Below are positions 653-24,998 of a stretch of 26,495 bases of DNA, piece by piece. The notes under the pieces were generated by a model. It had not been told where the DNA came from. It saw only the letters and a list, made by a program, of their open reading frames with translations, and searched no databases. Each line of letters begins with the position of its first letter. The first letter of the stretch is position 1. The position numbers and the translations under genes were made by a program. The stretch is from IMG/VR virus record IMGVR_UViG_3300025818_000152, positions 1 to 26,495 of that record, one strand, 5' to 3'. The stretch comes from a virus.

Positions 653-916
653 ATGCCGATTTGGCTGGTTCCTATCATTAGCTTTTTAGGGAAGCGTGGG
701 ATTCACTTCATAGTCTACGCCGTTTTCGCTTTGATAGGTGTAGGGTTATGGCAGAAGTTTTTTCCGAGTAATTCAAGTAATATCGAAAAGATAGAGAAAC
801 AAGTCAACGTCTACGGGGCAGACAGCCAGCGTGAGCCGTTGTTCGGGTGCGCGGCGTGGCGGTTACAGACAGAAGTGTACTGGAAAAGAAATGAAAGTCG
901 ACCACCAACAGAGTAA
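653..916 (+). CDS. small membrane protein, lysis-type candidate
   Basis: The start codon directly follows the preceding stop (TAAATG) and there is no strong SD, so reinitiation is likely. The 87 residues hold one hydrophobic segment (about 10-36, containing FIVYAVFALIGVGLW), then a soluble part with an EKIEKQVNVYG stretch and a small Cys/Trp-rich patch (FGCAAWRLQ). The 3' end overlaps the start of the next gene at 891. It is the third consecutive small membrane protein, so a role in lysis or in membrane passage of DNA can be suggested but not shown. Confidence 0.55.
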   Translation: MPIWLVPIISFLGKRGIHFIVYAVFALIGVGLWQKFFPSNSSNIEKIEKQVNVYGADSQREPLFGCAAWRLQTEVYWKRNESRPPTE

Positions 917-1877
917 CTTTACCGCGGGCGAGCTTGCTCCGACGTTGTTTGGAAGAACGGATATAGCGCAGTATGTAAATGCCTGTGCTATTGTTGAGAA
1001 TTTCTTAGTAAGGCCGCATAGTTCTTTGATAAGTTGTCCCGGGACAGAGTTTATTAATGATGCTAAGTACACAAGTGGGGCATCGACGGCTAATACGTTG
1101 GCGTTGTATGTGCCGTTCTCAACTGATTTTTCAGATGAGTCTCCATATAATCACATTCCATCTTCTTCTGTTGTGACTCTTAGCACAGCGACATTTGCGA
1201 CATCACCGGCAAGCGGGCATTTCCCGAACACTTCTAGCTCAATTCTTATTTATTCATATCATTCCATATTTGAATTAGACGATAACAATTTCGAGATAGG
1301 TGTCCGATTTCGTATCAGCAATCAATTAGTACATGGGGATAGTAGAACAATAATAAGCAAGGGTCGTCCTCATGTTGGGGCATCTGATTTCGGTGGATTC
1401 AGTATATTTATTGGAACGGAGAATTTTGGCGAAAATGATAGGCTTCAGGCTGTTGTAGGTGGCTTTGGGAACTACTATGGGTGTGATTACACAATGCCTG
1501 CCAGTACAAAGTTTCAAGCAAATACTTGGTATAAAGTAATGACAAATAGAATTAGCAACACAATGTATTTGTATTTAGACGATGTTCTTGTTGCTACAGC
1601 CGATCTGACGGGTGTTATAGTTCCTGAAGACAATGTTCCTGTTGTGATTGGCGGGCAAATAAATTCGTCAGAGTCTGGTTATGAGGCGAGAATAAATGGG
1701 TATGTTGATGAAGCATATATTATTAATGGGATTTCTCCAGCGGAATATCCAACAACAAGGGTTTACGGCCGTTCCCGCCTGATTCCCTTCGTGTTCAGCC
1801 GGGATGACGCTTACGCGATCGAGTGCGGGGAGAGTTACTTTAGGTTCTACACCAACGGAGGGGTAGTCAACGCGTGA
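891..1877 (+). CDS. nozzle N-terminal module, copy 1, with LamG insertion
   Basis: This 328-residue protein has three parts. Residues 1-60 (SNFTAGELAPTLFGRTDIAQY to GTEFINDAKY) match the N-terminal signature of podovirus nozzle/tail proteins, which typically read as SF..GE.SP.L.GR.D...Y, then NF.V...G, then PGT.F. Residues of about 61-291 are a beta-rich LamG/concanavalin-like domain (NTWYKVMTNRISNTMYLYLDD, then IGG and GYVDEAYI). The last 37 residues (SRLIPFVFSRDDAYAIE to YFRFYTNGGVVNA) resume the nozzle module. In most relatives this module continues into the nozzle body; here the gene stops. ATG 891 aligns with the start of copy 2, whereas the longer frame from 831 adds an unrelated 20 residues. 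The LamG part would project from the tail and could bind glycans (inference). Confidence 0.75.
   Translation: MKVDHQQSNFTAGELAPTLFGRTDIAQYVNACAIVENFLVRPHSSLISCPGTEFINDAKYTSGASTANTLALYVPFSTDFSDESPYNHIPSSSVVTLSTATFATSPASGHFPNTSSSILIYSYHSIFELDDNNFEIGVRFRISNQLVHGDSRTIISKGRPHVGASDFGGFSIFIGTENFGENDRLQAVVGGFGNYYGCDYTMPASTKFQANTWYKVMTNRISNTMYLYLDDVLVATADLTGVIVPEDNVPVVIGGQINSSESGYEARINGYVDEAYIINGISPAEYPTTRVYGRSRLIPFVFSRDDAYAIECGESYFRFYTNGGVVNA
1041..1069 (+). repeat. 29-bp direct repeat, left copy (LamG insertion boundary, copy 1)
   Basis: The 29 bases beginning gggacagagtttattaatga are identical to 2841-2869 in module copy 3. They encode GTEFINDAKY, the last nozzle residues before the LamG insertion. 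Such identity between otherwise diverged copies marks a recent duplication or recombination joint. Confidence 0.85.
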
Positions 1878-2182
1878 AAACCGATTTCCAACAGACCAGC
1901 TTTGTGGGAGGGGAGATCGCCCCGGCTTTATTTGGTAGGTCGGACATCGCCCAATATGAATACGCGTGTGAGAAATTGGAGAATGTGTTAGTTACCCCTT
2001 TCGGGAGTTTGATTAGCTGTCCGGGGACTGAGTACATCGGAGGGACTAAGCACTCGGCACAGAGTACGAATAACACGTCTAGGCTTTTACCTTTTGTCTT
2101 TTCTAGGGACGATTCGTTTGCGATAGAGATGGGGCATAACTATTTCAGATTCTTTACTAACGGGGGAGCCGTAACGCAATGA
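1874..2182 (+). CDS. nozzle N-terminal module, copy 2, without LamG
   Basis: The GTG start overlaps the stop of copy 1 (GTGA), with a G-rich SD (ggagggg) about a dozen bases upstream. The 102 residues align without gaps to the first 60 residues of copies 1 and 3 (MKTDFQQTSFVGGEIAPALF, GRSDIAQY, SLISCPGTEY). After a roughly 10-residue linker they run straight into SRLLPFVFSRDDSFAIE and YFRFFTNGGAV. This is the module as it appears in ordinary nozzle proteins, so the LamG domains of the neighbours are insertions. The 3' 43 bases are overlapped on the other strand by the HNH gene. It probably assembles with the body protein encoded at 3695, but this is inferred. Confidence 0.75.
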   Translation: MKTDFQQTSFVGGEIAPALFGRSDIAQYEYACEKLENVLVTPFGSLISCPGTEYIGGTKHSAQSTNNTSRLLPFVFSRDDSFAIEMGHNYFRFFTNGGAVTQ

Positions 2183-2676
2183 AGGTCAAATCTACTATGG
2201 CATTTAGGACACAATCTTTGCCAATCTTCAATTTTTCTTCGGTATTTGTGATCTATATTAGACCAATGATATATTTTTGCTTTAGTCGTACCGCATTGCC
2301 AACAAACTCTAGGCTTTCCAGCTATATTCTCAACCCAAATGTGGGTAGCTCTATAGCCAGATTTTTCTCCTTTCCAAGTAGGGCTTTTCTCACCGAGGAA
2401 TATTCCAATATGGGAAATACTAAGTTTCTTTCTAGTTTCTCGACTTACAAATCTCCCGCGGTTAGCAATACCGTAACATTCTCTAGAGCAATATTTTCTT
2501 TTGTTTTCATAAGCAGAAAACGCCTTACAGCAATTATGACAAAAATATCTTTTTATTCTAATTTTCTTTCTAATCGATACAGCGCAGAGTATGGAGCAAA
2601 ATTTCCCATGTCCACGCTTCACATGGTATGGTCTAGGATTAAATTCTTTATTGCAAACAATGCAGTTTTTTATCAT
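2140..2676 (-). CDS. HNH homing endonuclease with NUMOD3-like motif
   Basis: This 178-residue protein is a site-specific DNA endonuclease of the phage HNH type. It has two Cys4 zinc-finger-like pairs (C5/C8/C27/C31 and C46/C49/C63/C67) and a NUMOD3-like DNA-binding motif near 78-91 (SRETRKKLSISHIG). Next comes the common linker EKSPTWKGEKSGYRA, and then the HNH core: CWQC at 125-128, N140-I-D-H143, and CPKCH at 156-160. The last 12 residues (CVTAPPLVKNLK) are simply the antisense reading of copy 2, which supplies the stop codon, as expected of an inserted gene. The region is visibly more AT-rich than its flanks. Its insertion lies precisely at the start of module copy 3. A free-standing element is likely, since there is no room for an intron core around it. 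Confidence 0.85.
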   Translation of the reverse strand: MIKNCIVCNKEFNPRPYHVKRGHGKFCSILCAVSIRKKIRIKRYFCHNCCKAFSAYENKRKYCSRECYGIANRGRFVSRETRKKLSISHIGIFLGEKSPTWKGEKSGYRATHIWVENIAGKPRVCWQCGTTKAKIYHWSNIDHKYRRKIEDWQRLCPKCHSRFDLHCVTAPPLVKNLK

Positions 2677-2682
2677 ATAAGG

Positions 2683-2711
2683 ATTATACCATTAAAACAG
2701 ATATAATTCAA
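2683..2711 (-). promoter_or_regulatory. sigma70-type promoter of the HNH gene, leaderless geometry
   Basis: On the minus strand TTGAAT (2711-2706), a 17-bp spacer and a perfect TATAAT (2688-2683) precede the HNH start codon by only six bases. The expected transcription start therefore falls at or next to the ATG at 2676, with no room for an SD. The -35 matches consensus at four of six positions. The promoter lies inside the coding start of module copy 3. Confidence 0.55.
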
Positions 2712-3686
2712 ACCACATTTACAGGGGGAGAGTTTTCTCCGAGGTTATTCGGCAGGACGGATATTGCTCAGTACACAACAGCCTGCGCGGTGGTGGAGAA
2801 TATGCTTGTAAGGCCTTATGGGACGATTATCTCTACACCGGGGACAGAGTTTATTAATGATGCTAAGTATGACACATCTGGATTATCTGATGATGATATC
2901 GACGAAGATGTGATTTTATATCTTGAGATGGAAGGAACAAATGGATCAACCACATTCACCGATTCATCTTCATATAATCATTCGATAAGTGCTACAGGGG
3001 GGAATGTTGCAATCAGTACGGCACAATACAAGTTTGGCGGTTCATCGGCTTTATATCAATATGTAGCGGTAGAGGATGAGCAGGAGAGAATATATGTAGC
3101 AGATAATGACGTATTTGATATTCATATTGCACAAGATCGCACTTATGAGTTGTGGATGAGATGGACAGATTTAGCCCCGGCGGGGAATGGGAATAATAAT
3201 TTTTATTACCAAGTTGGCCCTAATTCCGATCTGATTAGATGCGATGCCGATGAATTTGTTGTTGGTTCGGTGCGTTTTGGATTCAATATGACAGACTCAG
3301 GTTCCGGTAGTGGGGTGGCCCAATCTTCCGATCTAACCCCAAGCCTGAATGAATGGCACCATATTGCTTATGTAAAGAGTTCAAGCACATTGAATATATA
3401 TCTCGATGGTTCCAATATTGCTTCCGCGACTTTCTCAGCTGGTTTTGTTTTTGCTGCGCCAAACTCTGCGGTTGTTATAGGGCAAAGAACAGACGGTTAT
3501 ATGGACAGCTTTATTATTACAAACCGAGCAAAGTATACGTCTAATTTTACTCCACCCACGGGTGGAAGAAATTACGGCCGTTCTCGCCTGATCCCCTTCG
3601 TGTTCAGCCGTAACGACGCTTATGCTATCGAAGCCGGAGAAACATATTTCAGATTTTATACTAATGGTGGAGTAGTAAACGCTTAG
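2691..3686 (+). CDS. nozzle N-terminal module, copy 3, with LamG; probable AUU start
   Basis: The protein has the same layout as copy 1. Residues 1-60 (IKTDIIQTTFTGGEFSPRLF to GTEFINDAKY) align without gaps to copies 1 and 2. A different LamG domain fills about 61-294 (LNEWHHIAYVKSSSTLNIYLDG, then VVIGQRTDGYMDSFII), and the last 37 residues are almost identical to the end of copy 1. No ATG, GTG or TTG occurs between the stop at 2640-2642 and GTG 2790, which would delete the first half of the module. The codon matching Met1 of the other copies is ATT at 2691, eight bases after AGGA (2679-2682). The ATG that once began this gene probably remains at 2179, separated by the HNH insertion. An AUU start is therefore inferred; loss of function is the alternative. 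Confidence 0.65.
   Translation: MKTDIIQTTFTGGEFSPRLFGRTDIAQYTTACAVVENMLVRPYGTIISTPGTEFINDAKYDTSGLSDDDIDEDVILYLEMEGTNGSTTFTDSSSYNHSISATGGNVAISTAQYKFGGSSALYQYVAVEDEQERIYVADNDVFDIHIAQDRTYELWMRWTDLAPAGNGNNNFYYQVGPNSDLIRCDADEFVVGSVRFGFNMTDSGSGSGVAQSSDLTPSLNEWHHIAYVKSSSTLNIYLDGSNIASATFSAGFVFAAPNSAVVIGQRTDGYMDSFIITNRAKYTSNFTPPTGGRNYGRSRLIPFVFSRNDAYAIEAGETYFRFYTNGGVVNA
2841..2869 (+). repeat. 29-bp direct repeat, right copy (LamG insertion boundary, copy 3)
   Basis: Identical to 1041-1069. At the other boundary both copies also share near-identical DNA (ttacggccgtt, then cgcctgat and ccttcgtgttcagcc), at 1763 onward and 3572 onward. The LamG cassettes are thus flanked by recombinogenic sequence. Confidence 0.85.
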
Positions 3687-3694
3687 GAGATCAA

Positions 3695-5704
3695 ATGGCA
3701 GCTTATGAATTAACACACACTTACACAGCAAGTCAAATCTACGACATACAGTACGCGCAGATAAACGACGTTATTTATCTCGCCCACCCCGACCACCCAC
3801 CGAGGAAACTGACAAGAATCGCCTCGAATAACTGGACTTTAACGGATGTGCCTTTTATTGGAGGCCCGTTCTTTACCGATAACGGAATCCTCTCTGGTTC
3901 TTCCATCTTACTCTTAACTTCGGCTACGATCACCGCGAGTGCCACGGCTGGAACGGTTACTCTCTCAGCGAGTGCGAACATCTTTACAGCTTCTGGTTCG
4001 ACATTAGGTCACGTTAATACTTTTTGGAAAGTCGGGTCGACTGTAACGAGTGCCACGACCGGCTTAGATGAACAGGGGTATGTGAAGATCACAGCAGTCA
4101 CTAATCCGTCCACAGCGACGGCAACGGTAATGAAAACTCTTTCCACGGCTTCGGCTACGACTAACTGGGCGCAGGGGGCTTGGTCTTATGTGTTAGGGTT
4201 TCCTGCTCGGACAACCTTTTACCAGCAAAGACTTGTATTCGCTCGCACAGATTATCAACCACAGAACGTCTGGTTGTCTAAATCTTTCGAGTTTGAAAAC
4301 TTCGCTCTTGATGGGGGAGAGGACGACGACGCGATAGACATACAGCTTGCCTCTAACGAATCGAACGAAATCAAGTGGATCGTTCCTGGGACTAATTTAA
4401 TCGCCGGTACGTACGGAGGGGAGTTTGTTATCAAGTCTGGTGATGGTTCTCCTTTAACGCCAGCCAACACGAACGTCGGGAAGGAAACATCTTGGGGGTC
4501 TGAGGCGGTTGTGCCTAAGAAGATAGGAAACTTCTTTTATTACATTCAAAGATTCAGCCGTAAGGTACGGGAGCTTTTCTTTAACTTCGACCTAGACGCT
4601 TATAAATCGGTAGATAAGACTATCCTTTCCCCACACATAGCAGGGGATGGGTTTATAGATATGGCTTACCAACAAAACCCTGACTCTATTCTTTGGTGTG
4701 TTACGTCACAAGGGACGATCTCGACAATGACTAGAGAGGTCGATCAAGAGGTGCAGGGGTGGGCTAGACAAACAACTATCGGAAACTATGAGTCTATCGT
4801 TTCAATTCCATCTCAGAGCGAGCCGCACGACGAGGTTTGGGTGGTTGTTAAGAGGACGTTAGGAAGTGGAGCCGAGAGAAGGTATATCGAAAGATTTAAA
4901 AGCCCTATCGTGCCGGATAGAAAAGATGACTGTTTCTACGTCCACTCAGGTTTGACTTACAACGCCTACGATGAAACAGCTTCTCCCACGTCATACACGA
5001 TCAGTCTATCAGCGACAGCCGGGACGACTGTTGTGGTGACTTCTTCCGGGGCGTACTTCGCTATCGGGGATATAGGGCAGAGAATAAGAGCGATAGACGC
5101 AGACGGTGACACAGTAGGGGAGTTAGAGGTCACAGCTTTCACTTCTTCGACGGTGGTTGTTGGAGAGGTAAAGACGAATTTCGACGCTACTTCATACACA
5201 GGTGGAGAGTGGGGGCTTTCTGTTTCGACTGTGTCAGGGTTAGACCATCTTGAGGGGTTGGAGGTGGTTGTCTTAGCTGACGGAGGGTTAGATAAACCGA
5301 ATAAGACAGTTTCCGGAGGGGCGATCAGTTTAGAGTACAACTATTTCAAAGTCCACGCGGGGCTTCCGTACACTCAAAAGATTCAGACTTTACCCATCGA
5401 AGCCGGTAGTCAAAGAGGGACTTCTCAATGCAAAATCCAAAAGATTAACGAATTAGGATTTAAAGTGAACAACTCTCACACCGGGTTTTATGTAGGAGGA
5501 ACAGAGTCCACTTTAGACAGGGTGCAGTTTAGAAATTCAGCGACAGAAATGGGGACACCTGAGGCCCTATACACAGGGGTAATTCCAAAGATACCTTTTG
5601 GTGATGGGTACAGGTACGGCGCGCAGGTGTGGATTCAGAACCCCGACCCACTTCCCGTCGAGCTTTTATCAGTTGTATACACGGTCGATACCAATGACAA
5701 GTAG
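3695..5704 (+). CDS. nozzle (tail tubular B-like) body protein
   Basis: This 669-residue protein forms the main part of the short-tail nozzle through which DNA leaves the virion. It opens with YELTHTYTASQIYDIQYAQ, then NDVIYLAHPDHPPRKLTR and NWTLTDVPFIGGPF. In other podoviruses these motifs lie directly downstream of the SRLIPF.FS...YFRFY.NGG module on the same polypeptide. Later parts (FPARTTFYQQRLVFARTDYQ and WLSKSFEFENF, then IKWIVPGTNLIAGTYGGEF) are also typical. The body is beta-rich with Thr/Ser/Ala-rich inserts near residues 70-140 and 430-500. The SD GGAG (3686-3689) precedes ATG 3695, so the split is a true gene boundary. It is expected to pair with the three upstream modules. Confidence 0.75.
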   Translation: MAAYELTHTYTASQIYDIQYAQINDVIYLAHPDHPPRKLTRIASNNWTLTDVPFIGGPFFTDNGILSGSSILLLTSATITASATAGTVTLSASANIFTASGSTLGHVNTFWKVGSTVTSATTGLDEQGYVKITAVTNPSTATATVMKTLSTASATTNWAQGAWSYVLGFPARTTFYQQRLVFARTDYQPQNVWLSKSFEFENFALDGGEDDDAIDIQLASNESNEIKWIVPGTNLIAGTYGGEFVIKSGDGSPLTPANTNVGKETSWGSEAVVPKKIGNFFYYIQRFSRKVRELFFNFDLDAYKSVDKTILSPHIAGDGFIDMAYQQNPDSILWCVTSQGTISTMTREVDQEVQGWARQTTIGNYESIVSIPSQSEPHDEVWVVVKRTLGSGAERRYIERFKSPIVPDRKDDCFYVHSGLTYNAYDETASPTSYTISLSATAGTTVVVTSSGAYFAIGDIGQRIRAIDADGDTVGELEVTAFTSSTVVVGEVKTNFDATSYTGGEWGLSVSTVSGLDHLEGLEVVVLADGGLDKPNKTVSGGAISLEYNYFKVHAGLPYTQKIQTLPIEAGSQRGTSQCKIQKINELGFKVNNSHTGFYVGGTESTLDRVQFRNSATEMGTPEALYTGVIPKIPFGDGYRYGAQVWIQNPDPLPVELLSVVYTVDTNDK

Positions 5705-15014: not shown

Positions 15015-15431
15015 GTGAAAAGCCAAAAGGTTATCCCGATAAACGTAGTTACCCCTTTCCCAAAGATAAATACATATCCAAAGGAAAGAGCGTTTAAGTC
15101 GGGCTATATAAAAATGGATAAAGACACACTCAACAAGGTTTTATTCCACTACTGCGATGTCAAGGGGTTCCCTATTAAAGAGATCCGGTCTAGGGACTAT
15201 GGTCGGTTCTATAAGAGGATCAACGAGCTTTTAGAGAGGACAGACGGGAACGCCGAAGAAGTAAATCGGGGGATTGACTGGATGGATAAGAAGTTTGGGG
15301 ATGAGCTTAGCTGGACACTAGAAACCCTAGATAAGTATTGGTTAGAGTACCGGGCCGTTAAGAAGAAAAAGGTCAATAACGACGCAGACGCGACAGACGA
15401 GTTACTCCGGAAGATGGGGGCGATCAAGTGA
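15015..15431 (+). CDS. unknown helical protein, possibly replication-related
   Basis: This 138-residue product starts at GTG 15015, right after a GGGC/GCCC hairpin and without a clear SD. ATG 15114 (residue 34) is an alternative but also lacks one. The part from about residue 35 is helical (DKDTLNKVLFHYCDV, DYGRFYKRINELLERTDGN, DELSWTLETLDKYW). It has the general look of the C-terminal domain of phage replication or helicase-loader proteins, but no diagnostic motif is present. The C-terminus is Lys/Asp-rich. The stop overlaps the next GTG. The function is unknown. Confidence 0.5.
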   Translation: MKSQKVIPINVVTPFPKINTYPKERAFKSGYIKMDKDTLNKVLFHYCDVKGFPIKEIRSRDYGRFYKRINELLERTDGNAEEVNRGIDWMDKKFGDELSWTLETLDKYWLEYRAVKKKKVNNDADATDELLRKMGAIK

Positions 15432-15778
15432 AACCCACTAAGAAAAGCCTAACCCATAAGCTAGACCGCGAGTGTTCGCGCATAATCAGGAGTCAGGGAT
15501 CGTGTCTGCGGTGTGGGAATACAACTTATTCGTTGCTTCAATGCTGTCACATTTTCTCAAGGGCGAATCGGGCTGTGCGGTGGGATTTAAAGAACCTGCT
15601 TTGTTTGTGTGCTGGATGTCACTTTTGGGCGCATCAGAACCCAACATTATTCGGGGACTTTGTGAAGGAGTGGTTGGGGGCAGACTATACGCCGCTAAAG
15701 AATAGGGCCGGGTCTATAAAGAAATGGACGATAGAAGAAATGCAAGAGTTACTTAAAAATCTGGAGGGGATAAGATGA
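15428..15778 (+). CDS. NinG-like HNH nuclease / recombination protein
   Basis: GTG 15428 overlaps the upstream stop (GTGA). The 116 residues match the lambda NinG (Rap) style of HNH/zinc protein: LDRECSRIIRSQGSCLRC with C26/C29, LQCCHIFSRANRAVRWD with H41, N56 in LKNLLCLC, CAGCHFWAH with C61/C64/H65/H69, then NPTLFGDFVKEW. In lambda, NinG is a structure-specific endonuclease for recombination intermediates. The neighbouring genes are all plus-strand and overlapping, which suits a resident recombination gene more than a homing element. Confidence 0.75.
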   Translation: MKPTKKSLTHKLDRECSRIIRSQGSCLRCGNTTYSLLQCCHIFSRANRAVRWDLKNLLCLCAGCHFWAHQNPTLFGDFVKEWLGADYTPLKNRAGSIKKWTIEEMQELLKNLEGIR

Positions 15779-18479: not shown

Positions 18480-19604
18480 ATGAAAACTATTATTCTAGGA
18501 GCAGGTTTTACAGGGTTGGCGGCAGGTTACGGAACAGACATCCCTATCTACGAGGCCACAGAACACGCCGGGGGGATTTGCCGGTCTTATAAGAAATACG
18601 GGTTCGACTTTTCAACAGGCGGGGGGCATTGGATATTTGAGAATGAAAAGACTCAGAAAGCGATGGAGTTTATCCGGGGGTTGGTCGAGCTTAATTCTTA
18701 CGATCGAAAGGCGGGAATTTACTATAACAAAATCTTCCCTTACCCTATCCAGACCTTCACGCAGAAAGAGTCGGTTTCCACTCCTGGGTACTTTAAAGAC
18801 TGGCTCTCAAAGAAGTTTAGTCAAGCTGAATGTAATATGTTTTTCTATCCTTTCAACGAGAGATACACAGCAGGCTTGTACGACAGTATCGTTCAGTTTG
18901 ACTCTTATAAGACTCCCCCGGCCGGTGGGGTAGGTTTTGTTTCAAGATTCCACGATCCAGTGAATGGTTTAACCGAGTTGGTTAATAAGATGGCTGAGAA
19001 GTGCATGATTAATTATAAGAAGCGAGCGATTAAGGTCGCCCTAGATGAAAAGATGGTAGTCTTTGCCGATGGGGAAGTGGTTAAGTACGACAAGCTGATC
19101 TCCACTATCCCACTCGATCAGTTGCTCAAGCTATGCGGGCAGAATAAGTATGAATTACCCTATTCCTCGGTTTTGGTTATCAACATCGGCGCGGAAAGAG
19201 GGGTTAATTACCCGGATGAACATTGGTTATACGTTCCTTTTTCTCAATCAGGTTTTTACCGATTAGGGTTTTACACGAACGTCAATAAGAAGAAAGCTCC
19301 AGAAGGGATGGTTTCTGTGTCCGCAGAGATAGCAATTAGGAATTTAGAGTATGCCGATCTCCCCATTGACTCTATGTGTGCAGAGGTTGTTTCCGAGTTA
19401 CAGTCTTGGAGATTTATTGATGAGGTTAGAGTGGTAGACCCGACCTGGGTTCGTTGCGCGTACACTTGGAACAGAACGCCGGAGGAGAGAGAAGTTTATC
19501 TGCAGTCTTTGGCTACGCAGGGAGTTATCTCGACAGGGAGATATGGTAAATGGAAATTTCAGGGAATGTCCGAATCAATAATGGATGGGTTCAATGCTTG
19601 TTAG
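18480..19604 (+). CDS. FAD-dependent oxidoreductase, UDP-galactopyranose mutase/protoporphyrinogen oxidase type
   Basis: This 374-residue protein begins with the FAD-binding GXGXXG motif (IILGAGFTGLAAGY), then the ribose-binding acid and second glycine motif (YEATEHAGGICRS). FDFSTGGGHWIF and FPYPIQTF follow, as in UDP-galactopyranose-mutase-related proteins of polysaccharide clusters. The end has the FAD pyrophosphate-like STGRYGKWKFQGMSESIMDG. The start codon follows the upstream TAA directly. Membership in a sugar cluster favours action on a sugar nucleotide or glycan. A true mutase cannot be claimed, since known UGM residues beyond the FAD site were not verified. Confidence 0.75.
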   Translation: MKTIILGAGFTGLAAGYGTDIPIYEATEHAGGICRSYKKYGFDFSTGGGHWIFENEKTQKAMEFIRGLVELNSYDRKAGIYYNKIFPYPIQTFTQKESVSTPGYFKDWLSKKFSQAECNMFFYPFNERYTAGLYDSIVQFDSYKTPPAGGVGFVSRFHDPVNGLTELVNKMAEKCMINYKKRAIKVALDEKMVVFADGEVVKYDKLISTIPLDQLLKLCGQNKYELPYSSVLVINIGAERGVNYPDEHWLYVPFSQSGFYRLGFYTNVNKKKAPEGMVSVSAEIAIRNLEYADLPIDSMCAEVVSELQSWRFIDEVRVVDPTWVRCAYTWNRTPEEREVYLQSLATQGVISTGRYGKWKFQGMSESIMDGFNAC

Positions 19605-20292
19605 CGTAATCGTACCTAATCACGGAAGAATCATAACGACCTTAGTGGAGTCAATTAGAAACTCCACATATAAGGACGTGGAGCTTTTGGTAATCGACCG
19701 CGGGTATGAAAGAAGCGAACAGAGGAACATGGGGATCGCCGAAGCAAAAGGGGAATTGTTTTTAATCCTAGACTCCGACCAGAGCGTTCATCCCAAGTTA
19801 ATCGAGGAATGTGTTTCTCTTTGTCAGATGGGTTATGGTTCGGTTTATATACCTGAGATTATTGTCGCCAAGAGTTTCTTCGGGAAAGTTCGGGCGTATG
19901 AGAGGGAGTTCTATACAGGTACAGCGGTGGACGTGCCGAGGTTCGTTAAGAAAAGGTTATGCCCCAAGTTTGATACTAATCTTCGAGGCCCCGAGGATTC
20001 GGATTGGGGTAATAGGATTTTAGGGCCAAGAGTAACTTCAAGTTATCCTTTATATCACCACGACGACATAGGTTTCATTGAATACTTCCGTAAAAAGGCC
20101 TACTACTCTAAGAGTATGAAAAGGTATGTGCAGAGAAACCCGACAGACAAGATTTTAGATTGGAAGTGGCGGTGTTTTGGAGTGTTCTTGGAAAAGGGAA
20201 AGTGGAGAAAAATTTTACAACATCCTATCCTATTCGCGTGTGTGATGGGGATTATCTTTTTAAGGGGGATCATTTATATATGCAACCGCTAG
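19594..20292 (+). CDS. GT2 family glycosyltransferase with C-terminal anchor, 1
   Basis: This 232-residue protein starts MLVSVIVPNHGRIITTLVES, a standard GT-A opening, and has the nucleotide-sugar DXD motif (ILDSDQSVHP, D60/D62). The usual DDGSTD loop is replaced by VIDRGYERSEQRNMGI. A C-terminal hydrophobic stretch (HPILFACVMGIIFLRGIIYI) would hold it at the membrane. ATG 19585 gives three more residues; neither start has a strong SD and both overlap the upstream gene. It is likely an inverting transferase adding a sugar to a lipid-linked glycan. The donor and acceptor are unknown. Confidence 0.75.
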   Translation: MLVSVIVPNHGRIITTLVESIRNSTYKDVELLVIDRGYERSEQRNMGIAEAKGELFLILDSDQSVHPKLIEECVSLCQMGYGSVYIPEIIVAKSFFGKVRAYEREFYTGTAVDVPRFVKKRLCPKFDTNLRGPEDSDWGNRILGPRVTSSYPLYHHDDIGFIEYFRKKAYYSKSMKRYVQRNPTDKILDWKWRCFGVFLEKGKWRKILQHPILFACVMGIIFLRGIIYICNR

Positions 20293-21206
20293 TTTCCGTG
20301 TGTATTCCGTGTTTCAATCAGTCTCAATTTGCGATAGACGCAATCACCACATCATTGTTACAGACGTATCAGAACGTAGAAGTAATTTTCTTAGACGATG
20401 CTTCCACAGACGAAACGCCGAAGTATAAGAACCTAACTTGGTATGGGGAGAAAGAGCCAAAGTTTAAATATTACCGAAGCGAAACTCCATCAGGAACAGG
20501 GGGGTCATTCAACAAGGCGATCAGCTATGCGAAGGGGGAGATTATTATTCTCCTCTGCGCGGACGACTACTTTTTAGACCGAAACGTAATCCAAGACATT
20601 GTTGATTTATTTAATCACGTTCCTTCTTTGGGGCATATATCAAGATACTACCATCAGTTTATCGACGGGGATAAGCGTCCGGTAAGAGCGTGGAGAGGGG
20701 ATGATGTTATGGAGCTTGCTAATAACCCTTCGGGTCTAGCGTTTCGCCGGGAAGCAATCTATGGGAAAGAATTAACCAATCGTATGTTTGTGGAAGTTTC
20801 TAGTTTGGTAAGCGAGGTTTGCTTGGAATGGGGTTACGATATTCTAAGATACGACACCGTGGCTGTTCGTATACACCAGAGCATTTCCCGCAGTAAAGAT
20901 TACTACCTAAAGAGATGGACTTCTTCGCCGGTAGAGGAATGGTCTAAGGTTGGAGGGTATGCCTTACTCAAAGACTACACATCCATTTTACAAATAAAAA
21001 ACTACTTCACGATGGAAGCGGTTTTAAAAGAGGTGTGGAATTTTATCCGCTTACGTCCTTTAAACTTAATCAATCCGGCTTTTATATTTTTTGCTTTACT
21101 CGCCATTTTAACACCGCGAAGGATATTAAGGAATATCCCCGATATTTACCGCAAGACGTGGGGCCGATGGACGACTAGAGAAGTGAAAAGAAAATGCCAA
21201 AACTAA
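20280..21206 (+). CDS. GT2 family glycosyltransferase with C-terminal anchor, 2
   Basis: This 308-residue protein starts at ATG 20280, inside the end of the previous gene. A longer frame from 20160 adds 40 residues of unrelated overlap. Motifs are VSVCIPCFNQSQFAIDA, FLDDASTDE (D39/D40), LLCADDYFLD (D95/D96), NPSGLAFRREA and, near the end, the hydrophobic INPAFIFFALLAIL. It resembles the next gene throughout (PSG.AFR, F.VE, VA.R.H), so the two are paralogues from a tandem duplication. It probably transfers a sugar to a membrane-bound acceptor. Confidence 0.8.
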   Translation: MQPLVSVCIPCFNQSQFAIDAITTSLLQTYQNVEVIFLDDASTDETPKYKNLTWYGEKEPKFKYYRSETPSGTGGSFNKAISYAKGEIIILLCADDYFLDRNVIQDIVDLFNHVPSLGHISRYYHQFIDGDKRPVRAWRGDDVMELANNPSGLAFRREAIYGKELTNRMFVEVSSLVSEVCLEWGYDILRYDTVAVRIHQSISRSKDYYLKRWTSSPVEEWSKVGGYALLKDYTSILQIKNYFTMEAVLKEVWNFIRLRPLNLINPAFIFFALLAILTPRRILRNIPDIYRKTWGRWTTREVKRKCQN

Positions 21207-22075
21207 CCATCTGCATACCAGCCTATAACTCCGAGCGTACTCTCGCCGAAAGCATAGAGTCCGCGCTAGAACAAAATTATCCAGACAAAGAGGTTCTGGT
21301 CATAGACGACGGATCAACAGACGCTACTGCACAGGTGGCAAGGTTGTACGATGTCCGACTGATACTCAACGAGAAGAATGAGGGAATAGGTCTTACCCTC
21401 GCCAAGTTGATGAAAGAAGCTCAAGGCAAGTATGTAATCTATCTCTGCGCTGACGATGTTTTCACAGACAAACGCTTCGCCGGGGACGTGGTGCATCAGT
21501 TTGATACAGGTGACTCTGATATAGGTGTACTCGGTAGATACTTTTACTTCTTCCGCGACGGCTATCCCGGAGCTATCGGAGTGAGTCGCGATGAGAATAT
21601 CTTAACTCAGTCCTGCTGTCCTTCGGGGATGGCTTTCCGCAAGATGGAAGTGGAAGGTACAAACAAAATCTTTGTAGAAATGCCTTACATCGTATCTCAA
21701 TACCTAAAAATGTGGCGGTGGTCAATGTTCAAGTGGGACGTGGTGGCGGCAAGGTTCCACCCAGGAGGAAACACCGGAACAAAGAAGTCTTATTACACAG
21801 AGTCACCTTTTATGAATTGGCTTGAGCTTTTAGGGCAACCTTTAAGGTTCAACGAAGGTTTCATCCAACTAAAAAACCGCGCTCCTCATTTACTTTGGCA
21901 AGAGATAAGGCTGACAGTTAAGCACGATCCAGACGTATTAAAAATTATAAACTTTTGGTTGTATGCTCTAGTGGCTTTGTTAGTACCTAGTTTTATATTA
22001 AGACATTTAACATCATTTTACAGGCACAGAATAAACCGCAACTTGGTTAAAATCATCATGAGAGAGGAAAAATGA
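21194..22075 (+). CDS. GT2 family glycosyltransferase with C-terminal anchor, 3
   Basis: This 293-residue protein has ITICIPAYNSERTL-like GT-A opening residues (LTICIPAYNSERTLAESIES), VIDDGSTDATA (D38/D39), YLCADDVFTD (D87/D88) and CPSGMAFRKME. The C-terminal segment WLYALVALLVPSFIL forms a membrane anchor and is followed by a basic tail. ATG 21194 overlaps the previous gene by 13 bases. It is a paralogue of the upstream gene, with a better conserved nucleotide-binding loop. Confidence 0.8.
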   Translation: MPKLTICIPAYNSERTLAESIESALEQNYPDKEVLVIDDGSTDATAQVARLYDVRLILNEKNEGIGLTLAKLMKEAQGKYVIYLCADDVFTDKRFAGDVVHQFDTGDSDIGVLGRYFYFFRDGYPGAIGVSRDENILTQSCCPSGMAFRKMEVEGTNKIFVEMPYIVSQYLKMWRWSMFKWDVVAARFHPGGNTGTKKSYYTESPFMNWLELLGQPLRFNEGFIQLKNRAPHLLWQEIRLTVKHDPDVLKIINFWLYALVALLVPSFILRHLTSFYRHRINRNLVKIIMREEK

Positions 22076-22076
22076 A

Positions 22077-23090
22077 ATGTCAAGTAAGAGAATACTCCTG
22101 ACTGGTATTGGGGGCTTCATAGGTTCACATTGTTTGTCGCATCTATTAGTCAACACAGATTGGGAGATTGTCGGGATAGATAGCTGGCGGCATAAAGGAA
22201 TTTCGGAGAGATTAACTCACAATGAACATTTTTTAAAACATATCAAGAGAGTCAATATTTACACACACGACTTGATTGCTCCTATATCTAGCGTCCTAAA
22301 GAGCAAGATTGGGAAGGTGGATTATATAATAAATTTCGCTTCAGAATCCCACGTTGACAGGTCAATCACAAACCCAGTTCCTTTTGTTAAGAATAACGTA
22401 GATATTGCTTTGAATATGCTTGAGTATGCGCGGGAGATAAACCCTGAAAAGTTTGTTCAAATCTCCACCGACGAGGTTTATGGTGCTACTGATGGAAAAT
22501 ATACTCATCCGGAATGGAGTGCTATTCTTCCTTCTAACCCGTATTCAGCTAGTAAGGCTTGTCAAGAAGCTATCGCTATAAGTTATTGGAGGACTTACGG
22601 GGTTCCGGTAATGATTACTAACATTATGAACACCGCCGGGGAGTATCAATCAAGCGAGAAGTATGTACCGATGGTTATTAAGAAGATTTTAAATGGGGAA
22701 AAAGTGCAAGTCCACGCCGATCCGAAAAGCGGAGAGCCAGGATCAAGATTTTGGCTTCACGCCCGGAATACGTCAGACGCGATATTGTTTATCTTAAAAA
22801 ATGTAGATGTAAAGAAGTTTCCAGAGGTAGACAGGCCGGAGAGATTTAACATTGTAGGGGAGAAACAAATTTCTAATTTAGAAATCGCAAAGATGATCGC
22901 CGATGTTATGGGAAAAGATTTAGATTACGAGCTTGTTGACGCACACTCAAGCCGTCCGGGGCATGATCCTCACTATGGGCTGTGTGGTAAAAAGTTAGAG
23001 TCTTATGGTTATAAATTCCCCGTTAACCTTCATTCGTCGCTTGAGAAGATGGTCAAGTGGACGTTAAACAATAAGGAGTGGCTAGAATGA
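22077..23090 (+). CDS. RmlB-like NDP-sugar 4,6-dehydratase (extended SDR)
   Basis: This 337-residue protein has the NAD-binding TGIGGFIGSH at 9-18, FASESHVDRSI near 87-97, the dehydratase signature STDEVYG with T131-D132-E133, and the Y156-XXX-K160 pair (NPYSASKA). The RPGHDPHYGL segment near the C-terminus is also typical of dTDP-glucose 4,6-dehydratases. The reaction is removal of water from an NDP-hexose to give a 4-keto-6-deoxy sugar, the first step to many deoxy and amino sugars. RmlC and RmlD partners are not in the window. It supplies a donor for the neighbouring transferases (inference). The exact nucleotide specificity cannot be read by eye. Confidence 0.8.
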   Translation: MSSKRILLTGIGGFIGSHCLSHLLVNTDWEIVGIDSWRHKGISERLTHNEHFLKHIKRVNIYTHDLIAPISSVLKSKIGKVDYIINFASESHVDRSITNPVPFVKNNVDIALNMLEYAREINPEKFVQISTDEVYGATDGKYTHPEWSAILPSNPYSASKACQEAIAISYWRTYGVPVMITNIMNTAGEYQSSEKYVPMVIKKILNGEKVQVHADPKSGEPGSRFWLHARNTSDAILFILKNVDVKKFPEVDRPERFNIVGEKQISNLEIAKMIADVMGKDLDYELVDAHSSRPGHDPHYGLCGKKLESYGYKFPVNLHSSLEKMVKWTLNNKEWLE

Positions 23091-23484: not shown

Positions 23485-23949
23485 ATGCCATATAAAGATA
23501 AAGAAGTACAAAGAGAATATTTTAGATTAAGGAACAAACGTAGATATAATAATAAATGTTTAGATTGTGGGGATGTTTGCCATGAAACATCTTCTAGATG
23601 TAAGCCGTGTTCAAAGTTAAAGAAATATAGAAATCCAAGTGTTAGGCAAAAGGGTTGGGCGAAGAAGATTAATGGTGTTTATCTTCAACGCATCGCTACT
23701 CGAATTAGGGATTTGGTTGAGTATTCCGAATGGCGTTTAAAAGTATTTCGCAGAGACAGGTTTGTTTGTCAGATGTGTTTGGAGTCTGGAAAAGTATTAA
23801 ATGCACATCATGTTGTAAGAATGAAAAGGATTTTAGTTGATGAAGGGATTGATACTATTGCTAAAGCGATTTCTTGTTCTTTGCTTTGGGATATTAATAA
23901 TGGAGTTACTTTGTGTCATTCGTGCCATAAGAAAGTTCATAAATTATGA
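23485..23949 (+). CDS. HNH endonuclease, probable homing gene
   Basis: This 154-residue protein has an N-terminal zinc finger (C25/C28 and C39/C42 in KCLDCGD and RCKPCSK) and a C-terminal HNH core: FVCQMC (C95/C98), AHHVVRM (H108/H109), NNGVTLCHSCHKKVH (N138, C144, C147, H148, H152). The DNA is clearly more AT-rich than the genes before it, and the role is unrelated to the sugar cluster it sits in, both signs of a mobile endonuclease gene. It overlaps the radical SAM gene by four bases and so has been fitted into the operon. The SD is weak. Confidence 0.8.
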   Translation: MPYKDKEVQREYFRLRNKRRYNNKCLDCGDVCHETSSRCKPCSKLKKYRNPSVRQKGWAKKINGVYLQRIATRIRDLVEYSEWRLKVFRRDRFVCQMCLESGKVLNAHHVVRMKRILVDEGIDTIAKAISCSLLWDINNGVTLCHSCHKKVHKL

Positions 23950-24998
23950 GAATATTATTTAAAGACAGCCCTTATCATTCTCAGCGTCAATATGAGAAGC
24001 CGGTTTGGATTTATCCGGCTCATCTTGCGATGTTTGCGACGCTCCTTAGAGATAAAGGGAATGAAGTTGTTTGGTTTGGTGAAGATGATGGTAAGTTTGA
24101 TAGGATTATTAAATCTGATCGAGAGATAGATGTTGATTTTGATAAACTGCCGATACCTGACAGGAAATTTACTAATTCAATGAATCCTAAATATCTTTCT
24201 TATGGAAATTATAAATATTTTCCAGGTAGTCATCTTTTATCCTCTAACCTTTGCTGGTGGGCCGGGGCAAAGGGGTGTACCTTTTGTGTGGATTCTTTGA
24301 GGATCATTGAAAATGAGAAACGAGGGCTTAGGACAGTAGATCATGTTTTAACTGAGATTGAAGATTGCGTTAAGTTAGGGCATAAGGAGTTGTTTGATGA
24401 TGCTGGAACAATACCGATAAATGAGTGGTTGAATGAATTATGCAGAAAAATGATAGATACCGGACTAAATAAAAAGATTGTATTGGGGTGTAATCTTAAA
24501 CCGATTAAACAGGATTTCAAATTAATGAGAGAAGCTGGATTTAGGTTCATATTGGTAGGCATTGAATCTGCCAATCAAAATACTATTAACAAGATTCAGA
24601 AAGGGCAACGAGCAGATAAAGTTATTGAGAACATAAAGGCGATGTCAGATGCAGGACTGGATCCTCACGGAACCTTCATGTGTGGCTACCCTTGGGAGAC
24701 GCCGGAAGAAGAAAAGAACACGATAGAGCTTTGCCACTACCTTCTTAAAAAAGGGTATCTCAAAACAGCGCAGGCAAGCGTATATTCCCCACCCAGGACA
24801 CAGCCAGATCCAAATTCCCCAGGCCATAAGTACGTTCCTAGGTTTTTCGACGCATACAGAAGTCCTGAGTTTTGGTTTCATAAAGTAAAAGACATTAAAC
24901 GATGGGAAGATTTTACCTACCTTCTTCGCGGGGGTAGGCTAGTACTGGAGGAGAAAGTGAGAAAGTTTTGTTTGAAAAAGTCTGTATCATCCTGTTAG
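23946..24998 (+). CDS. radical SAM enzyme with CX7CX2C cluster motif
   Basis: This 350-residue protein has an N-terminal region like B12-binding radical SAM proteins (LAMFATLLRDKGNEVVWFGE, then LPIPDRKF), but no DXHXXG cobalamin motif. The Fe-S motif is C103-X7-C111-X2-C114 (LCWWAGAKGCTFC), the spacing seen in 'CWWG....CTFC' enzymes that modify peptides, rather than the usual CX3CX2C. Other core pieces are ELFDDAGT and LVGIESANQNTINKIQKGQ with GTFMCGYPWET. A C-terminal extension follows. The substrate is unknown; a sugar, lipid or peptide are all possible. The 5' two thirds appears more AT-rich than the rest. Confidence 0.75.
   Translation: MRILFKDSPYHSQRQYEKPVWIYPAHLAMFATLLRDKGNEVVWFGEDDGKFDRIIKSDREIDVDFDKLPIPDRKFTNSMNPKYLSYGNYKYFPGSHLLSSNLCWWAGAKGCTFCVDSLRIIENEKRGLRTVDHVLTEIEDCVKLGHKELFDDAGTIPINEWLNELCRKMIDTGLNKKIVLGCNLKPIKQDFKLMREAGFRFILVGIESANQNTINKIQKGQRADKVIENIKAMSDAGLDPHGTFMCGYPWETPEEEKNTIELCHYLLKKGYLKTAQASVYSPPRTQPDPNSPGHKYVPRFFDAYRSPEFWFHKVKDIKRWEDFTYLLRGGRLVLEEKVRKFCLKKSVSSC

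Follow-up and report, generated by a model that had tools for sequence, protein, structure and literature searches.

A putative HNH homing-type gene inserted antisense at the start codon of a phage tail-nozzle module gene

Introduction

How can a phage gene survive the insertion of another gene, backwards, at its start codon? Most descriptions of homing genes place them in introns, inteins, or intergenic DNA. The homing-type gene treated here lies in reverse orientation on the first codon of a tail gene, and the sequence hints at how the arrangement is survived: the stop codon of the preceding gene is kept, the interrupted gene has gained another ribosome-binding site, possibly with AUU as its start codon, and the sense strand of the insert is open.

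The window analyzed, 26,495 bases long, comprises an entire virus record. A first-pass annotation had pointed to an HNH gene inserted at the start codon of the third of three tail-nozzle modules (copies 1–3). That observation is confirmed here, and the reading of it as an insertion at the start of copy 3 is supported by the comparisons below. We consider it probable that a free-standing gene of the HNH homing type entered in antisense orientation right after the start codon of copy 3, that copy 3 was restarted, and that ribosomes are perhaps carried across the insert.

The tail-nozzle cluster

The cluster covers positions 891–5704 of the window and contains the following genes:

891–1877, plus strand: nozzle module copy 1, with a LamG-type domain within the module
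1874–2182, plus strand: nozzle module copy 2
2691–3686 (start at about 2691), plus strand: nozzle module copy 3, with a LamG-type domain within the module, interrupted at its start
3695–5704, plus strand: body of the tail nozzle protein, matched by PHROG 376 from position 104 onward

Relatives of the nozzle body are annotated as tail tube B, tail tubular protein B, or stabilization protein, and the N-terminal part missing from the body is found as three separate genes, copies 1, 2, and 3. More than one copy of the module occurs in 9 of the 120 module-bearing loci, these nine being the window, its own sub-loci (L004–L006), and fetches of two contigs of a single relative (L007, L008, L027, L028, L063). 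In the other module loci one copy was found, which in most cases forms the beginning of a long nozzle ORF. Separate, LamG-bearing nozzle modules are unusual in themselves: the N-terminal module is found as two or three separate genes in the window (891–3686) and in L007 (4634–5991), and in some of the separate modules the LamG-type domain is inserted at the same place. No DNA-level match to window positions 900–5700 was found among 50,697 phage records, and a nozzle scan of bacterial genome contigs, which matched 538 patterns, yielded no relative. Further along (18480–23090 and 23946–24998), the window has genes that we take, by eye from their translations, to be sugar-enzyme-like (galactopyranose-mutase-like, glycosyltransferases, nucleotide-sugar dehydratase), together with what is presumably, again from the translation, a radical-SAM-like protein.

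The insert and its borders

The features around the junction of copies 2 and 3 are:

2140–2676, minus strand: HNH endonuclease-type gene, 178 amino acids, assigned from PHROG, identity to phage HNH proteins, conserved columns, and a structural model
2140–2178, minus strand: last 12 HNH codons and stop codon TAG, antisense to copy 2
2179–2182, plus strand: ATGA, the old copy 3 start codon overlapping the copy 2 stop (insertion target)
2185–2693, no strand assigned: AT-rich insert of about 510 bp, delimited by empty-site comparison, GC content, and the end of the conserved part of HNH

Copy 2 (1874–2182) ends in GCAATGA, with the ATG at 2179–2181 at the expected start of copy 3. The codons expected next, AAA ACA GAT, resume at 2694, so that the displacement of the first codons of copy 3 proposed in the first-pass annotation is borne out by the sequence. 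A start-like codon stands at both borders, ATG on the left and ATT on the right. Between them, the GC content is 35%, lower than in copy 2 (48%) and copy 3 (43%), and the insert is almost filled by the minus-strand HNH ORF, in line with the AT-rich stretch of about 510 bp coding for HNH on the other strand that had been described. The HNH stop codon does come from antisense copy 2, as proposed: residues 167–178 and the stop are read there. In the family alignment, the conserved part of HNH ends at CHxxxD and the sequences are variable beyond; in the window, the D of this motif is codon 2185–2187, directly beside an ATG-AAG that the relative L007 shares. The HNH protein of another relative, L011, ends one residue past the conserved CHxxYDL. 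The borders are uncertain by a few bases, and the left ATGAAG also matches the empty site of L007.

That empty site had been anticipated as an HNH-free relative with an uninterrupted overlap of the copy 2 stop and the copy 3 ATG. One such phage was found, L007/L008, in which the stop of the corresponding copy A and the ATG of copy B overlap as ATGA (4933–4936). L007 and L008 are separate contigs that show no difference in the 12,377 bases compared and are therefore counted as one phage; its main nozzle protein is 80% identical to that of the window. When the window flanks are joined at the ATG and compared to L007 without gaps, 58 of 90 bases agree before the ATG and 99 of 150 after it. Shifting the right flank through 18 registers (−9 to +9) gives 28–47 matches in 150, and the unjoined sequence gives 40 in 150. 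The comparison argues for a precise insertion relative to a homologous site that is empty in one phage; the window phage is likewise known from one record, since nothing closer than 80% was found.

A second empty site was sought through the two other phages with a backwards HNH gene discussed below: the interrupted gene of L011 matched only its own phage in IMG/VR and nothing in the set "phages", and the fibre gene of L153 gave distant matches only. A phmmer search with the window HNH (E 0.01, 139 loci) hit no nozzle locus other than the window's own, the rest being loci fetched for HNH. The presence of HNH at the copy 2/copy 3 site appears sporadic among relatives. A group I intron carrying an HNH gene was considered and rejected, as was any other known RNA, because Rfam returned no match at E values up to 10 in positions 1700–3200, hence no intron core, and the HNH ORF, which takes up nearly the whole insert, leaves no room for one.

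The encoded HNH protein

The protein is matched by PHROG 8446 (E 0.0037), with two PHROGs of unknown function scoring slightly better, and its residues 95–164 have 44% identity to an annotated HNH protein of a Gordonia phage. Ten columns, including H, C, N, and W, are invariant in 53 aligned HNH sequences. A model built from these 53 sequences reaches pLDDT 88 and pTM 0.51; it replaces an earlier one from two sequences (pLDDT 39). Among the 50 fold neighbors listed in BFVD, 22 have an HNH or homing name, 18 no name, two are NinG, and eight others. Pfam yields nothing above its cut-off, and no fold in PDB matches at E 0.001; a sequence search against PDB gave two hits (E 0.26 and 0.31), treated as chance. 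From family profile, conserved residues, and predicted-fold neighbors, the protein is predicted to be a nuclease of the HNH type, and the inserted gene is very probably of the homing kind. Two further HNH-type genes, of other families, occur in the window at 15428–15778 and 23485–23949 (best PHROGs 5034, NinG-like, and 119).

A candidate promoter precedes the gene:

2683–2711, minus strand: TTGAAT-17-TATAAT, 10/12, with TG before the second hexamer

It would yield a nearly leaderless mRNA; promoter-like sites number six in the region, with 2.9 expected from shuffles. The first-pass annotation had located the HNH promoter within copy 3. This is correct for the −35 hexamer (2711–2706) but not for the −10 hexamer (2688–2683), which is in the insert.

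HNH genes in related phages

The HNH loci are the best 80 of 140 matched in a scan of viral sequences; bacterial genome contigs gave five HNH loci. By simple gene calling, 60 of the 80 have plus-strand neighbors on both sides. Two phages besides the window fall in the inverted class, L153 and L217/L218; L217/L218 is the phage of L011. This class leaves out 22 further loci with a minus-strand ORF on at least one side, as well as L192, which has a minus-strand signal and plus-strand neighbors on both sides. Close inspection of minus-strand neighbors covered L155, L174, L200, L203, L208, and L223. In L200 and L203, the downstream minus-strand neighbors look like real genes and the upstream neighbor is on the plus strand (a convergent edge); in L208 and L223, the minus-strand ORFs on both sides were taken as spurious by their look.

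The window, L153, and L011 have in common a backwards HNH gene, head to head with the next gene, and a short spacer of 14, 28, and 26 nt, respectively, each with a Shine-Dalgarno sequence of at least five bases. In L153, HNH starts at 1024 and a tail-fibre-like gene at 995 on the other strand, with AAGGA in the spacer; in L011, the spacer carries TAAGG. The first ten bases of the interrupted gene of L011, ATGTCTATAA, are present on either side of the insert, and the far copy contains the HNH stop; at this locus (L011, 2974–3591), the start region looks as if rebuilt or duplicated. The HNH tree leaves the window and L153 unjoined, with 4 of its 50 inner branches well supported.

Restart of copy 3

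Two elements are found at the right border:

2678–2683, plus strand: Shine-Dalgarno sequence TAAGGA, 7 nt before the ATT
2691–2693, plus strand: ATT, candidate AUU start codon of copy 3, in the exact Met column of the module alignment

In the copy 3 frame, the stretch from the upstream stop to GTG 2790 is free of ATG, GTG, and TTG codons, and a start at that GTG would remove 33 residues of the conserved module. The Shine-Dalgarno sequence before the ATT is the strongest of the cluster; a six-base match of this kind occurs in 0.3% of composition-matched random 20-mers (chance 0.003). In L007, copy B keeps the ATGA overlap and has no Shine-Dalgarno match at its start, so that the insert seems to have put its own site in the place of coupling.

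AUU is a weak start codon, and the ATT at 2691 may be a functional start, a mutated ATG, or a sequencing error. This AUU, or a former AUG there, is the rather likely, if putative, start of copy 3, and a restart at the Shine-Dalgarno–AUU site is likely. The possible RNA hairpin hiding this site has a z-score of −1.07 for 47 nt, with 28 of 200 shuffles folding at least as well; the signal is weak and is not used as an argument. The count of the start-region pattern in the window is at chance level.

The open sense strand

The strand opposite to HNH, which is the sense strand of the tail genes, contains the following frame:

2179–2706, plus strand: bridge frame, stop-free for 175 codons over the insert and terminating 16 nt into copy 3

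It runs from ATG 2179 to TAA 2704–2706 and is off frame with copy 3. Since its codons are in register with those of HNH, the bridge is open on condition that HNH uses no TTA, CTA, or TCA in the insert. The chance of this in the window is 0.0037 with the codon use of the window and 0.0017 with that of the family; these values fit the insert better than one of 0.0005 computed over the full 178 HNH codons, among them the flank-coded end with one TTA. For L153, the chance is 0.0003 with family codon use. There, the open stretch of the sense strand is 166 codons long, beginning at ATG 1482 and closed by a TAA that lies 14 nt into the fibre gene; the bridge ATG is without Shine-Dalgarno sequence, 10 nt past the upstream stop.

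As a rough control, taken from mechanical ORFs, an antisense-open stretch of 165 codons was counted in the fetched loci: it occurs in 0 of 92 other ORFs at GC 0.32–0.39 (two more in this range are the insert itself, read on its two strands), in 0 of 180 at 0.39–0.45, and in 46 of 219 at 0.45–0.6. Antisense stops were also counted within HNH genes. The 81 genes (80 loci and the window) were reduced to 70 by dropping four without a clear CH motif and collapsing repeats; 49 of these have at least 125 codons, and 43 of the 49 are below 42% GC. Counted over the last 140 HNH codons, antisense stops are absent from just two of these 43, the window and L153. L217, the phage of L011, has eight, and the 40 sequences not classed as inverted have at least one each. 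The Fisher test of open strand versus inversion gives p = 0.003 with the window and p = 0.048 without it, the latter calculated because the window had prompted the comparison.

Whether the open strand is selected, instead of being due to chance, is close to evenly poised, a shade on the doubtful side. The other reading, a sizeable possibility though short of even, keeps the same insertion but has the sense strand open by chance and copy 3 initiated de novo at the Shine-Dalgarno–AUU site. That site alone would suffice for copy 3, and L011, with the same layout and eight antisense stops, indicates that an open sense strand is not needed; yet the strand is open in two of the three inverted cases and in none of the 40 not classed as inverted, and the probability for the window is 0.0037 to 0.0017. 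Ribosomes crossing the insert on the bridge frame are suggested by the original ATGA coupling and by two of the three inverted cases, L011 being contrary. Strict coupling is reported for 13 of 14 tested overlapping gene pairs in the abstract of one study (PMC6728339), and, according to a 2025 review (PMC12548453), coupling declines with overlap length over the range of 4–25 nt, with none left at 25. With overlaps of 14–16 nt, this would leave partial coupling at best.

Other readings of the locus

With its ATG and its coupling lost, copy 3 could instead be silenced, or nearly so, with the LamG-bearing copy 1 taking over. The missing ATG, GTG, or TTG near the N-terminus would fit, as would the likeness of copies 1 and 3 at both ends (70% over the first 60 residues and 92% over the last 36). 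Silencing is nevertheless unlikely, given that the copy 3 frame is intact over 331 codons and that the strongest Shine-Dalgarno sequence of the cluster stands in front of the ATT.

The HNH gene could also be an ordinary phage gene (for packaging, for example), brought in by illegitimate recombination and not homing. HNH proteins do have other roles in phages, as noted in PMC11855218, and homing is so far read from sequence, with cleavage a prediction. In three phages (the window, L011, and L153), the borders fall at a start codon, and the neighbors within the HNH family are scattered, which makes this reading quite improbable.

A fusion in frame, as in the ShiLan element, would require a −1 frameshift at TTAAAAC or one A lost in the sequence. 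One extra base near the right border would indeed join the frames, and the ShiLan inserts are open in the host frame (PMC11855218). The open frame of L153, however, also misses its downstream frame, by a different offset, and the next gene there has its own ATG and Shine-Dalgarno sequence. Because both open-bridge cases miss the downstream frame with differing offsets, fusion is rejected as the main reading and is given very little weight. An assembly chimera bringing an HNH gene foreign to the locus is hardly credible: this phage is known from one record, with nothing closer than 80%, but its flanks rejoin codon-exactly against the empty site, and L011 and L153 have the same type of junction.

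A possible course of events

A homing-type HNH insertion at a start codon is well supported by these comparisons, and the following steps would account for the locus. The HNH gene would have entered antisense at the ATGA overlap of copies 2 and 3, presumably after cleavage of the empty site by the HNH protein. The left border would retain the copy 2 stop and the old copy 3 ATG, with the HNH frame leaving the insert and stopping in antisense copy 2. The right border would provide copy 3 with a new start region, in which TAAGGA is followed after 7 nt by an AUU in the Met position, putatively used as start. Ribosomes leaving copy 2 at the ATGA could translate the 175-codon bridge; they would stop 16 nt past the copy 3 AUU, stay on the mRNA, and possibly re-initiate at copy 3.

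Tentatively, some backwards homing genes of phages could be two-sided, with an endonuclease on one strand and the other strand kept free of stops; ribosomes coming from the upstream structural gene would then traverse the insert and terminate shortly beyond the start of the next gene, preserving coupled translation of the interrupted operon. If the open strand is selected, a selfish gene would be shaped on both of its strands, with the host operon still translated across it, and the count of antisense stops against orientation would be a simple sequence test for any collection of homing genes.

Comparison with known systems

Among the titles and abstract openings listed, from a library lacking most subscription papers, none reports a homing gene that lies antisense over a start codon and leaves the sense strand open; the passages searched of PMC10448857 gave no relevant result. 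In the available text on the ShiLan element (PMC11855218), a hidden, out-of-frame HNH lies in a phage DNA methylase gene, and the terms antisense, opposite strand, reverse strand, and reverse complement are absent. As in the window, that insert is neither an intron nor an intein and is also open in a second frame, which in ShiLan is the frame of the host gene. There, HNH is read in a different frame of the insert, and the host frame continues across it into the methylase; in the window, by contrast, HNH lies on the antisense strand, and the sense frame terminates within the next gene at TAA 2704–2706, off the copy 3 frame. A hidden HNH of the ShiLan type is rejected for the window, the insert not being open through the frame of the interrupted gene and HNH being on the opposite strand.

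Ranked by E-value over the HNH core, the nearest annotated phage proteins are those of the Gordonia phages Gudmit (44%) and Lton (41%). Unlike the window gene, they are on the same strand as their neighbors, directly before a DNA methylase gene (L141, 1198–1758, for Gudmit; L151, 1312–1755, for Lton), with end overlaps of 4 nt and 1 nt, respectively. The HNH inserts of ShiLan and Pacc40 are also in or near methylase genes (PMC11855218).

In PMC2988022, segD is named as the one homing gene of T4 opposite to its neighbors, the structural genes 23 and 24, an orientation similar to that in the window. It is, however, of the GIY-YIG family, lies between genes 23 and 24 without overlap, and has nine antisense stops in 223 codons. 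Another parallel from the same source is mobE in nrdA of phage Aeh1, like the window gene an HNH homing gene inside a coding sequence; there, the gene is split into two polypeptides, whereas here the first codon is hit and the gene restarted.
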